Below the pieces are notes generated by a model. It ran no database searches. It worked only from the letters and a program-made list of their open reading frames with translations, and was not told the origin of the DNA. DNA of 64,000 nt from Rhodococcus sp. KBS0724 (GTDB taxonomy: Bacteria > Actinomycetota > Actinomycetes > Mycobacteriales > Mycobacteriaceae). Positions within the stretch are counted from its first letter, which is position 1; each line of letters begins with the position of its first letter. Shown in pieces: positions 6,278-12,582 of this stretch. The translations under genes were made by a program, and so were the position numbers. The stretch spans positions 6,462,501 to 6,526,500 of the forward strand of contig NZ_VCBX02000001.1 of assembly GCF_005938745.2 (NCBI RefSeq). Reading direction: 5' to 3'.

Positions 6278-6871
6278 ATGACGACCAAACCATCCCAGCA
6301 TCCCGTTTCCGCGCACGACGGGTCCAGCATGGACGATCTGTTGCAGACCATGACGCGAGCAGTAAACACTCTGGCGCGCGCCGGAATTCGATTTGCGGTA
6401 GCGGGCGGTTGTGCTGTGTATGCACGCGGCGGTCCACCGTCGGGGCATGACGTCGACATCTTCCTACGCAAGCAAGACGCGGCGCCTGCGTTACGTGCAC
6501 TCCGAGAGATCGGAATGAAACCGGTTAACCCGCCCGAGGATTGGCTGACAAAGGTGTACGACGGCGATGTACTCGTCGATCTGATTTTTTCGGCCTCGGG
6601 GCGCGAGATCACTGACGAGTTCCTCGACCGGGCAACGTCTATGCGGGTAGGTTCCGCGGTGGCACCCGTAGTCGGCGCGACGGACTTGATGATCGATAAA
6701 CTGAACGTCCTCGATGCTCACCGTTGCGACTTCGTTCCCATGCTCGCGATCGCGCGCGATTTACGTGAACAAGTCGACTGGCCGGAGGTTGTCGACAAGA
6801 CGCGAACTTCGCCCTATGCACGAGCTTTTCTCGGGCTGCTCGACGATCTCGAGATTGCGTCGACGAAATAG
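6278..6871 (+). CDS. Nucleotidyltransferase-fold protein (MNT/AbiEii-like)
   Basis: A 197-residue protein with a pol-beta-type nucleotidyltransferase core. 'AVAGGCAVYARGGPPSG' is followed directly by 'HDVDIF', giving the GG motif at 43-44 and the metal-binding DxD at 58/60; a third acid lies in 'DVLVDLIF' near residue 95. The C-terminal half resembles the helical tail of AbiEii/MNT-like proteins. It is the first gene of a tight group with the BON and metallophosphoesterase genes. Such folds transfer nucleotides to RNA, protein or small molecules; the acceptor is unknown. No clear ribosome site precedes the ATG. Confidence 0.8.
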   Translation: MTTKPSQHPVSAHDGSSMDDLLQTMTRAVNTLARAGIRFAVAGGCAVYARGGPPSGHDVDIFLRKQDAAPALRALREIGMKPVNPPEDWLTKVYDGDVLVDLIFSASGREITDEFLDRATSMRVGSAVAPVVGATDLMIDKLNVLDAHRCDFVPMLAIARDLREQVDWPEVVDKTRTSPYARAFLGLLDDLEIASTK

Positions 6872-6910: not shown

Positions 6911-7174
6911 ATGAAAGCAGGAGAACAACTTCCGCAGTACTTGGTGGCACACATCAGACGAGCTTTTGCCGAGGATCCACGGACGTCGGAACTCGGTGTG
7001 CGAGTAACGATTCGGGGATCGAAAATCTATCTCAGCGGCGAAGTGACCAGTCTCGCTCGAAAGAGGGAACTCGAATCGGTTGTCACGGAACTTGCCCCCG
7101 ATATTTCCGTGTGCAACGACATCCACGTCGTGAGTTCAGCTGAACCACAAGCCGATTACGAGGACCTACAGTGA
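6911..7174 (+). CDS. BON domain protein
   Basis: An 87-residue protein made of a single BON-type module: the amphipathic helix 'LPQYLVAHIRRAFAED', the strand 'SKIYLSGEVTSL', the helix 'ARKRELESVVTELA' and the final strand 'VCNDIHVVS'. BON modules usually bind lipids or partner proteins. There is no signal peptide, so it should be cytosolic. ATG 6911 was chosen over an upstream TTG because GGAGG lies before it. Its TGA overlaps the GTG of the phosphoesterase (GTGA), which implies translational coupling. Confidence 0.85.
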   Translation: MKAGEQLPQYLVAHIRRAFAEDPRTSELGVRVTIRGSKIYLSGEVTSLARKRELESVVTELAPDISVCNDIHVVSSAEPQADYEDLQ

Positions 7175-7890
7175 TCCGGGTCGCTGCGGTTGGCGATGTG
7201 CATCTCGGCGCGGATTCACGCGGTGAGTTGCGGCCTGCACTCGACATGGTATCCGCCCACGCGGATGTCTTGTTGCTGGCCGGCGATCTCACCCGACACG
7301 GGGGTCGAGACGAAGCGAAGGTTGTTGCCGACGAGTTCGCAGATCTGGGAATCCCGGTTATCGCCGTACTCGGAAATCATGACTACCACAGCAATGCAGT
7401 CTCGGACGTTACGGATGCGCTTACTGCGCAAGGGATTTCTGTACTGGAAGGCGAATCTGTCACCATCGATGTTGCCGGGCAAACGTTAGGGATTGCGGGC
7501 ACCAAGGGATTTGGTGGTGGATTCGCGGGCAAATGCGCCAGCGTGTTCGGAGAACCACAGATGAAGGAGTTCGCCGGCCATACCGTCGATGTCGCCGAGC
7601 GCTTTCGGACAGCGGTATCGTCCCTCCAGGCAGACATCCGAGTGGCACTGCTGCATTACTCGCCGATCAGCGACACCCTGCACGGCGAACCCCCCGAGAT
7701 CTACCCCTTCCTCGGGTCGTATCTGCTCGGCGAACCTATCGACGAGTTTCAACTCGATCTGGCACTTCACGGTCATGCTCACGCCGGAACCGAGCGTGGC
7801 ACAACCCCTGGCGGCGTGAGAGTGCGAAATGTTGCACAACCAGTTATCCGAGCAGCGTATGCCGTGTACGGTCTCGGGTCGACGGACTGA
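7171..7890 (+). CDS. Calcineurin-like metallophosphoesterase
   Basis: A 239-residue metallophosphoesterase with every core motif: 'GDVHLG' (D9, H11), 'LLLAGDLTRHGG' (D39), 'VIAVLGNHDYH' (N69, H70), 'ALLHYSP' and 'LALHGHAHAGTERG'. The GTG start overlaps the BON stop by four bases. The family hydrolyses phosphomonoesters, phosphodiesters or cyclic nucleotides with two metal ions in the cytosol. Linked to a nucleotidyltransferase, it could remove a nucleotide or phosphate added by that enzyme (inference). Confidence 0.92.
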   Translation: MIRVAAVGDVHLGADSRGELRPALDMVSAHADVLLLAGDLTRHGGRDEAKVVADEFADLGIPVIAVLGNHDYHSNAVSDVTDALTAQGISVLEGESVTIDVAGQTLGIAGTKGFGGGFAGKCASVFGEPQMKEFAGHTVDVAERFRTAVSSLQADIRVALLHYSPISDTLHGEPPEIYPFLGSYLLGEPIDEFQLDLALHGHAHAGTERGTTPGGVRVRNVAQPVIRAAYAVYGLGSTD

Positions 7891-9812: not shown

Positions 9813-9888
9813 GCCACCTCCGCGCCGACGCTGATCAGTCGGTACAGCCCACCGGAAACGTCGTCGCGGAGAAGAACTCAGGCGTAAT

Positions 9889-10374
9889 CTACGCGCCGGC
9901 GTAATTCGCTGCCATTGCGAACGATGCCTCCAACACGTGGAATCGACCATCTGGCAGCGGACCCTCGGCCTTGGGATCGAGTCCGAAGCCACATCGCAAC
10001 AGCGGATCGAAGTACACGACGCACTCCCCGTTCTTCCATACGTTGAACGAGGAGACGGCTTCGACGACTCGAGCCTGGGTTACCACTTCCCTCCCAACGG
10101 ACAGAGGCAACATCAACTCTTCGGAGACACCCACCAGGGACATGGGCGCAACCGCAACCGTCCAGGCCCCCAGCTGCGCGGCCCCGACAATCGAGAGCTC
10201 CTCCCAGCCACGTTCGTTGACGCCACTCAATCCAATTGCCTTGCCGAGAAATTCATCTGTCATTGCCGCGATAACCGTCGTCGGATCCGCGTCACGCACG
10301 TACGTCACGACGAGACCGTTCTCGACCCACGGATAGTCGCGAATCACCCGTTCAAAATCGTTGTAGGTCTTCAT
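9889..10374 (-). CDS. Conserved hypothetical protein, DUF6461-like
   Basis: A 161-residue soluble protein. The N-terminus 'FERVIRDYPWVENGLVVTYV' followed by 'RDADPTTVIAAM' resembles DUF6461 proteins, which often sit in polymorphic-toxin or defence neighbourhoods; I hold this match loosely. No catalytic motif is visible. ATG 10374 was chosen as the conserved-looking start. The frame stays open upstream to about 10449 without a better ribosome site. It follows the Mrr-like gene on the same strand with a 43-base gap. Confidence 0.55.
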   Translation of the reverse strand: MKTYNDFERVIRDYPWVENGLVVTYVRDADPTTVIAAMTDEFLGKAIGLSGVNERGWEELSIVGAAQLGAWTVAVAPMSLVGVSEELMLPLSVGREVVTQARVVEAVSSFNVWKNGECVVYFDPLLRCGFGLDPKAEGPLPDGRFHVLEASFAMAANYAGA

Positions 10375-10417: not shown

Positions 10418-11455
10418 TCAATCGAGTCCGATTTCTCGGTCAACAACAAATACTTTCCGCAGTGGCAGCCTGCTGCGCCAGTGGGCGGGTAGCAGATCGT
10501 AGTGATCGAGAATCCATTCCACGATCTCGCTGCGGCCGATCAACCGCAAGTCGCCACGAGTCCGATCCAGGGCCTGCGCGTCGGCGCTGTACGAACCCAG
10601 CGACACGAACAAACCCACCTCCCCGGTGGACAAAGTGCCGATAAGTTGCTGCACTTCGGGACGTCCCATGGTTCTGTCGGTGTGCTTGCATTGCACCTTG
10701 ATCAGAGGCGGCTCCAACCCCAGCGGGTCGCGGTGCGCCACAATATCTATTCCACCGTCTCGTGAGTACGGGAGAACGCGAGTGCGATAACCCATCGCCG
10801 TCAGCAGATCAGCGACAAAAAGTTCGAAACCGCGGTGGCTGACGTCAATTTTCAACATGTTGATGATGAAGTCAGCAGTCGATTCCATCAACCGTGATGG
10901 GCTCGGTTCTTCGGTTGCGCTATCGACGGCAACATCCATATCGTCAACATTCGCCGCGGCTTCGACGACCGCGGTAGCTGTATCCGCGCTGCCGGTCTCG
11001 AGATAAGTCCGAAATTCCCCGTAATGCCGCTTAACCCGAAATAGAGTTACTGCCGACCCGATTTCGTACAGCGCCGACGTGGTGAACTCCGACCGTGGAA
11101 TCCCGATACGCTGCCACCGTACAGGCCGACGGTGGCGGTGCGTCGGCGCATCTGGATCGAAATAGTAATCACCGTCGATGACGCCGATGTTGATCGTCGA
11201 ATCGGATTTGTGGGGCGCAATGATGATGTCGCCGACCTCCATGTCGAAAGCGAATCGCACCAGTACCCCAGCCTGCACTGGGTACGAACCGGTTTTCCCG
11301 GCCGGATATTGTTCCGAAAGCAAAGTCTTGATGGTGCCGCGATCAGCGCCGATCTGCTTCAGATTCCCGACCCTGTCCCAACCGATACTGATAAATTTCC
11401 CAGCAATCAGATCAACGCTGGGCTCGTCGTTGTGGATACCCCACATTGCGCTCAT
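10418..11455 (-). CDS. Mrr-type restriction endonuclease with EVE/PUA-like N-terminus
   Basis: About 345 residues. The C-terminal 130 form an Mrr catalytic domain: 'GFELFVADLLTAMGYRTRV', 'GGIDIVAHRDP' with the catalytic Asp, and 'IKVQCKHTD' with the QxK motif, then 'EVQQLIGTL'. The N-terminal 160 residues ('MWGIHNDEPS', 'FISIGWD', 'VGDIIIAP', 'GVIDGDYYF') look like the EVE/PUA-like modules that read modified bases. That combination fits a type IV, modification-dependent restriction enzyme. The start is uncertain (11479 TTG, 11455 ATG or 11446 ATG) and has no good ribosome site. It is divergent from a second nuclease-fold gene. Confidence 0.8.
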   Translation of the reverse strand: MSAMWGIHNDEPSVDLIAGKFISIGWDRVGNLKQIGADRGTIKTLLSEQYPAGKTGSYPVQAGVLVRFAFDMEVGDIIIAPHKSDSTINIGVIDGDYYFDPDAPTHRHRRPVRWQRIGIPRSEFTTSALYEIGSAVTLFRVKRHYGEFRTYLETGSADTATAVVEAAANVDDMDVAVDSATEEPSPSRLMESTADFIINMLKIDVSHRGFELFVADLLTAMGYRTRVLPYSRDGGIDIVAHRDPLGLEPPLIKVQCKHTDRTMGRPEVQQLIGTLSTGEVGLFVSLGSYSADAQALDRTRGDLRLIGRSEIVEWILDHYDLLPAHWRSRLPLRKVFVVDREIGLD

Positions 11456-11499
11456 GACGGACACGCTATCGGTTGCCAACAGACAGGAATAGGCCGACT

Positions 11500-12582
11500 A
11501 TGACTACACACCCCTCAATGTTTCTTCAACGTCTCCTGCGTTCCGAGGTAAATGTCGGTGCATTCATCGGATATTTAGTGGAACGCGACGCGACGCCGCT
11601 GCAGAATGCACTCGGACTCGATGACAACGTCGTCAGTGCCCGAGTAGAAGTTCCTCATGGGAAAGGCCGCATGGATGTGGTGCTGTACGGCGCCACAGGT
11701 CCTATCGCGATTCTTGAATTGAAGGTTTCGGCAACTGAGCACGGTGATCAACTCGACAGATACGCAGAATTCGCACATACACACGATGCCCGCAAGTTTC
11801 TAGTGGACTTGGAGGTCGATGGTTCAACGGTTCCAGAAGGGTGGACCCACATCGAACTCGCCAACCTATTCGGTTACTGGTCGTCATCTACAAACTCGAC
11901 AGTTCGCGGCCTCGCCGCCGAGGCATCATCTGTTTTCGCTGCATGGAAGTCGCAACTGAATGGCCGGTTCGGCCAGATGGATTCAGCAATCCTGACCGTC
12001 GCGCTGCGAGCAGTTTCACAGGGGTTGGCTGGCCGCACCCCGTTCGACATGTACACAAGTTCAACCTCTGGCGGGCAGCCATCCATCACTGCGTACCTAC
12101 CGCATCCCTCAGGAACCGACGACGCGTACTTCTGCATCGACATCCGTTGCAACGACAAGAGCAATCCTCACCTCCCGTGGATCGCCCGACTCGGTGTGCA
12201 CGTCGACCGTGGTGAAGATCTGGCTGCGGCCAGGCGAACTGCTCACCTTTTGGCCATGCCACTAGTGCCAGCCCTTACTGTTTCGAAAGTTCAATCCGCA
12301 TGCGCAAATTCTGGAACTGGCACGTTGGCAACAACATTGTCATCCGATAAGCCACTGAAGGAACCGCGAGCACGAGAAACCAGTATCGAAAAATGGCTAG
12401 CAGCCGTGGATATCGCAGGAGACGGCAAAATCTCGGCCCACCCAGTCTTCTTCCACGACTGGGGCCGCCGCCTCGCCGCCCAGTTCTCACTCGATCTCAC
12501 TGATATGACGCGCAATGAACTTGAACAGCTGATCGTGATTCTCATGGATCATCTCACCGAATACTCAGAACCTCACGGCTGA
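11500..12582 (+). CDS. PD-(D/E)XK nuclease superfamily protein
   Basis: A 360-residue protein with a PD-(D/E)XK core in its first 110 residues: 'GRMDVVLYGATGPIAILELK' supplies the Asp and the ExK, followed by 'SATEHGDQLDRYAEF', as in PDDEXK_4 proteins. The remaining 250 residues are not recognisable and may sense a target or partner. The start codon lies 44 bases from that of the Mrr-like gene in the opposite direction, so the two share a promoter region. The 3' end overlaps the convergent TetR gene by ten bases. Confidence 0.7.
   Translation: MTTHPSMFLQRLLRSEVNVGAFIGYLVERDATPLQNALGLDDNVVSARVEVPHGKGRMDVVLYGATGPIAILELKVSATEHGDQLDRYAEFAHTHDARKFLVDLEVDGSTVPEGWTHIELANLFGYWSSSTNSTVRGLAAEASSVFAAWKSQLNGRFGQMDSAILTVALRAVSQGLAGRTPFDMYTSSTSGGQPSITAYLPHPSGTDDAYFCIDIRCNDKSNPHLPWIARLGVHVDRGEDLAAARRTAHLLAMPLVPALTVSKVQSACANSGTGTLATTLSSDKPLKEPRARETSIEKWLAAVDIAGDGKISAHPVFFHDWGRRLAAQFSLDLTDMTRNELEQLIVILMDHLTEYSEPHG

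Follow-up and report, generated by a model that had tools for sequence, protein, structure and literature searches.

Do two nuclease-fold genes that face each other across only 44 bases form one defence system, or is each a nuclease in its own right? We addressed this question for a gene pair of the soil bacterium Rhodococcus sp. KBS0724 that lies in a window of 64,000 nucleotides (the whole stretch of DNA analysed, whose numbering is used throughout; contig NZ_VCBX02000001.1, positions 6,462,501 to 6,526,500). P1, of 345 residues, occupies 10418..11455 on the minus strand, and P2, of 360 residues, occupies 11500..12582 on the plus strand. The initial annotation described an Mrr-type gene facing a PD-(D/E)XK gene, and both open reading frames (ORFs) were confirmed, with a divergent intergenic region of 44 bases between them (11456..11499, assigned to neither strand). 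Our analysis makes it quite probable that P1 is a stand-alone, nucleoside triphosphate-independent, modification-dependent (type IV) restriction endonuclease, and that P2 is a separate neighbour.

Domains and predicted fold of P1

P1 matched the Pfam family Mrr_cat (PF04471) with E 1.6e-25 and, nearly over its full length, the PADLOC model PDC-S02 (E 5.9e-102; residues 1-339 of 345 on profile positions 1-330 of 334). The nuclease domain comprises residues 190-329 (10469..10888, minus strand) and its active site is intact: of D237, Q255 and K257, which we take to be the catalytic residues from the general Mrr/PD-QXK motif, the first is kept in 58 of the 59 aligned family members and the other two in all of them. 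In the AlphaFold2 model of P1 (mean pLDDT 84.4), the nuclease half gave fold matches to AspBHI and MspJI, and the N-terminal domain (residues 1-156; 10988..11455, minus strand) adopts an EVE/YTH-like predicted fold with many YTH chains among its matches, which bears out the earlier proposal of an EVE/PUA-like N terminus. P1 thus has a predicted modified-base reader domain, as type IV restriction calls for. This domain was not detected by the Pfam families used here; residues W5, H8, N9, D10, F21, W26, K54, F68, D76, P81, T87, Y97, R109 and W114 are identical in 59 of 59 members. The N-terminal winged helix (Mrr_N) of the classical E. coli-type Mrr was not found either, as Mrr_N was not among the Pfam families listed for these 59 proteins. 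Judged by their coding sequences, P1 and P2 both evolve under purifying selection, with ratios of nonsynonymous to synonymous substitution of 0.09 and 0.15 against Rhodococcus globerulus and of 0.03-0.15 for five neighbours.

A protein search returned 1675 homologs of P1, and a search of 396 genomes of the phylum found the full-length protein in three, its own included (E <= 1e-50). P1-like proteins were also present in 50 plasmid records and two records of the phage collection, and the nuclease part in one viral contig. Eleven plasmid records covered at least 80% of P1, and in the ten inspected (all except H7) restriction-modification or similar genes lay nearby in seven, two of which (H5 and H6) are near-copies; in H8 the homolog sits between S and R genes, and one of the ten records carries no gene annotation. 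The Salmonella homolog from the phage collection (H21) adjoins STM4491- to STM4493-type genes, which we take to be a BREX locus. Residues 1-139 of P1 were matched on their own by three proteins from Rhodococcus plasmids that carry the annotation AAA family ATPase (H12-H14). H12, from a Rhodococcus pyridinivorans plasmid (L011), joins the reader to an AAA_5 domain and is followed by a gene with a match to McrBC (PF10117); 57 of 139 residues are identical to the P1 reader (41%). The same reader thus serves both Mrr-type and McrB-like architectures. The reader-plus-nuclease logic of type IV restriction, proposed in the initial annotation, is supported for P1 by the PDC-S02 match, the predicted fold and a reader in common with a McrB/McrC pair.

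Two side observations concern these plasmid loci. In the McrBC locus of L011 (5001-8325), the McrB-like protein starts with the P1-type reader, and some 300 residues that belong to no Pfam family separate it from the AAA domain. A Butyrivibrio plasmid (L038, 6088-8981 and 13017-13805) carries, around a single type I locus, three ORFs with matches to the P1 profile, of which one is strong and two are weak.

In the proposed mechanism, the N-terminal barrel of P1 would bind a modified base in an aromatic pocket, the base probably being flipped out of the duplex, and the C-terminal PD-QXK domain would then cut the DNA close by, so that marked phage or plasmid DNA would be destroyed; P2 would be a separate PD-(D/E)XK protein, possibly another defence or repair nuclease, and not an obligate partner. 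We infer the base flipping, the cleavage, the anti-phage effect and the mark read, be it N6-methyladenine (m6A), 5-methylcytosine (m5C), 5-hydroxymethylcytosine (hm5C) or another. The basis for this reading is the domains, intact motifs, predicted folds and purifying selection of P1 together with the restriction neighbourhoods of its homologs, and there are good grounds for placing P1 in a kind already published, the modification-dependent enzymes that join an EVE/YTH reader to a PD-(D/E)XK nuclease (PMC7641849).

Several observations weigh against type IV restriction by P1. The gene sits amid regulators and catabolic enzymes and not in a defence island, judged from 16 further window proteins (8 + 8) run through Pfam: the regulators were of the MarR, TetR, IclR (two) and LysR (one) families, the enzymes a Rieske oxygenase, a protocatechuate-type dioxygenase, an aldo/keto reductase and an alpha/beta hydrolase, and the others a DJ-1/PfpI protein, a nucleotidyltransferase-like protein and a phosphoesterase. 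Ten other window proteins were run through PADLOC and one, the phosphoesterase, partly matched a candidate model. The P1 model has a pTM of 0.67, which leaves the relative placement of its two domains uncertain. The plasmid homologs H2 and H10 have no restriction genes in view (two of the ten inspected records), and those in H2 and H4 are broken by insertion sequences. Finally, a single m5C methyltransferase-like match was present in the host genome (PF00145, profile positions 3-165 of 324, about half), and an enzyme that reads m5C in general would therefore endanger the host itself. PF01555 gave no match in the host genome, with controls positive in 10 and 11 of 14 genomes. Taken together, these two profile searches argue weakly against a general m5C target of P1. 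In line with a type IV enzyme, on the other hand, no cognate methyltransferase was found by Pfam among the 16 neighbouring window proteins, three of which had no match above a family cut-off and so could not be named.

P1 could also read modified RNA or a modified nucleotide instead of phage DNA. Many of the YTH chains matched by its fold are m6A RNA readers, and the YTH-like domains of CoCoNuT systems are predicted to target RNA (PMC11090510). However, the nuclease half resembles AspBHI and MspJI and the homologs sit amid DNA restriction genes, which makes an RNA or nucleotide target highly improbable.

P2 and its relation to P1

The nuclease domain of P2 spans residues about 6-138 (11515..11913, plus strand). 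P2 scored 21.1 bits against PDDEXK_4 (PF14281), just below the cut-off of 22.3 bits; its relatives P0010 (34.0) and P0137 (22.6) scored above and P0138 (16.1) and the L016 homolog (22.2) below it, and the L014 homolog gave no PF14281 match. The best PADLOC match, to PDC-S26, reached 22.2 bits over residues 57-153 of 360 and thus falls short of full length. The initial annotation had described a PD-(D/E)XK protein with a large unexplained C terminus, and this description held: E50, D59, E73-x-K75, Q84 and Y88 of the nuclease and H202, R216, K220, R230, R245, H249, H314, D320, R323 and R324 of the C-terminal domain (11980..12579, plus strand) are invariant in 16 of 16 proteins, and the C-terminal domain gave no clear fold match when the 1000 best chains from Foldseek were re-examined. 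In the literature collection searched, no paper named PF28530, and none named PF14281 together with nuclease and defense.

The distribution of P2 is rare and patchy. We found 16 homologs, and 17 in a deeper protein search (the 8000 best candidates scored in each); a search of 397 genomes of the order added three at 29-33% identity. Family searches (401 and 311 genomes, overlapping, with about 5-6 candidates scored per genome) found P2 homologs only in G000 and G003, and the 396-genome phylum search only in its own genome (E <= 1e-20). This distribution and the invariant residues suggest that P2 may act alone in defence or repair, as a self-contained PD-(D/E)XK enzyme whose C-terminal part would be a new domain for sensing or for binding DNA. 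The fold neighbours of its nuclease include VC1899 (Z 7.0), EndoMS/NucS (6.9) and Card1 (6.5), but all Z values are at most 7.0, which by the fold tool's own guidance may reflect merely a common arrangement, and two distant homologs adjoin transporter- and enzyme-like genes, with no defence gene recognised by eye in the ORF lists. We give this reading, which is compatible with P1 as a type IV enzyme, slightly less than an even chance.

A rival reading is that the pair forms a two-effector defence locus, in which P1 would sense and cut modified DNA, P2 would be a second effector, its target perhaps being the ends or some signal that its C-terminal domain senses, and the 44-base region would co-regulate both. 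Among 28 genomes of the genus, the same two do carry full-length P1 and P2, side by side and 44 bases apart in both (two further genomes gave a weak match to the P1 nuclease part only), and the purifying selection on both genes also favours a partnership. However, the neighbourhood is syntenic between these two genomes, with 87-89% nucleotide identity over most of the region, and so is one inherited locus and a single event; it is set amid catabolic and regulatory genes and not in a defence island. No P1-like ORF was found in the 20 kb around each of three distant P2 homologs (29-33%), nor a P2-like ORF (E <= 0.01) at 14 loci with P1 homologs besides the two Rhodococcus loci (L011-L013, L033, L034 and L037-L045; flanks about 1.5-12 kb). 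As P2 homologs at 44-52% identity (Gordonia) lie outside the genomes searched, the lack of pair conservation is shown for distant homologs only. The numbers also differ greatly, with 1675 homologs of P1 against 16 of P2 among its 8000 best candidates. With a single locus behind it, the two-effector system is unlikely. A more specific version is about equally unlikely: in it, modified phage DNA would be marked or nicked by the EVE/YTH-Mrr enzyme, and P2 would sense this damage through its C-terminal domain and act as a second nuclease. Mobile carriage of the pair was likewise rejected, as P2 was found in no plasmid or phage and confirmed in no viral contig, though P1-like proteins occur in the 50 plasmid records.

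The best start codons are ATG at 11455 (minus) for P1 and ATG at 11500 (plus) for P2, preferred because homolog alignments begin there; longer TTG starts exist for both and would make the ORFs overlap. In the intergenic region, 39 of 44 bases are identical in R. globerulus, and no sigma-70-type site was found.

Neighbouring genes in the window

The DUF6461-like gene reported to follow the Mrr gene is present, with a PF20062 match (E 1.5e-17) above the Pfam cut-off that is the only one found in this genome. A three-gene unit was rejected: in the syntenic R. globerulus region the gene is a remnant of which about 131 interior bases align, and other copies (G018, G021 and G003:C14) do not coincide with a full-length P1 match. 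The DUF6461 gene belongs to no conserved unit. At 9841-9891 (minus) its profile match continues in frame past a TAG stop, so the gene may have lost its last part; a chance extension is also possible.

Elsewhere in the window, a metallophosphoesterase at 7171-7890 (plus) gave a match (E 2.8e-12) to the PADLOC candidate PDC-S10 that is confined to residues 28-100, and is probably an ordinary phosphoesterase, and a small nucleotidyltransferase-like protein at 6278-6871 (plus) matched DUF2204 above the cut-off.

Comparison with known systems

P1 is a concrete case, backed by a fold prediction, of an Mrr-type nuclease that carries an EVE/YTH-like reader. Enzymes in which an EVE-superfamily reader is fused to a PD-(D/E)XK nuclease have been predicted to be modification-dependent, putative type IV restriction enzymes (Bell, Wolf and Koonin 2020, PMC7641849); P1 joins the same two parts; the main text of that paper does not use the name Mrr. 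PDC-S02, which one paper lists as a predicted system, matches P1 over nearly its full length, with no difference seen.

P2 has the nuclease core and motif of PDDEXK_4 (PF14281), for which P0010 and P0137 pass the cut-off, but itself remains just under it and carries a further conserved C-terminal domain, for which the best Foldseek chains gave no clear match. If the two proteins were shown to act together, they would constitute a new two-nuclease defence.

The reader of AspBHI is of the SRA type. MspJI carries an SRA-type reader (PMC11037411), whereas P1 has an EVE/YTH-like reader at its N terminus, and VcaM4I, an EVE-HNH enzyme described in the same source, differs from P1 in having an HNH nuclease in place of the Mrr type. 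The McrBC system of the Rhodococcus pyridinivorans plasmid has the same reader (41% identity over 139 residues) but there it belongs to an AAA_5 protein, and the McrC-like part is encoded by a gene of its own, so that reader swapping between the two architectures becomes testable within one genus.
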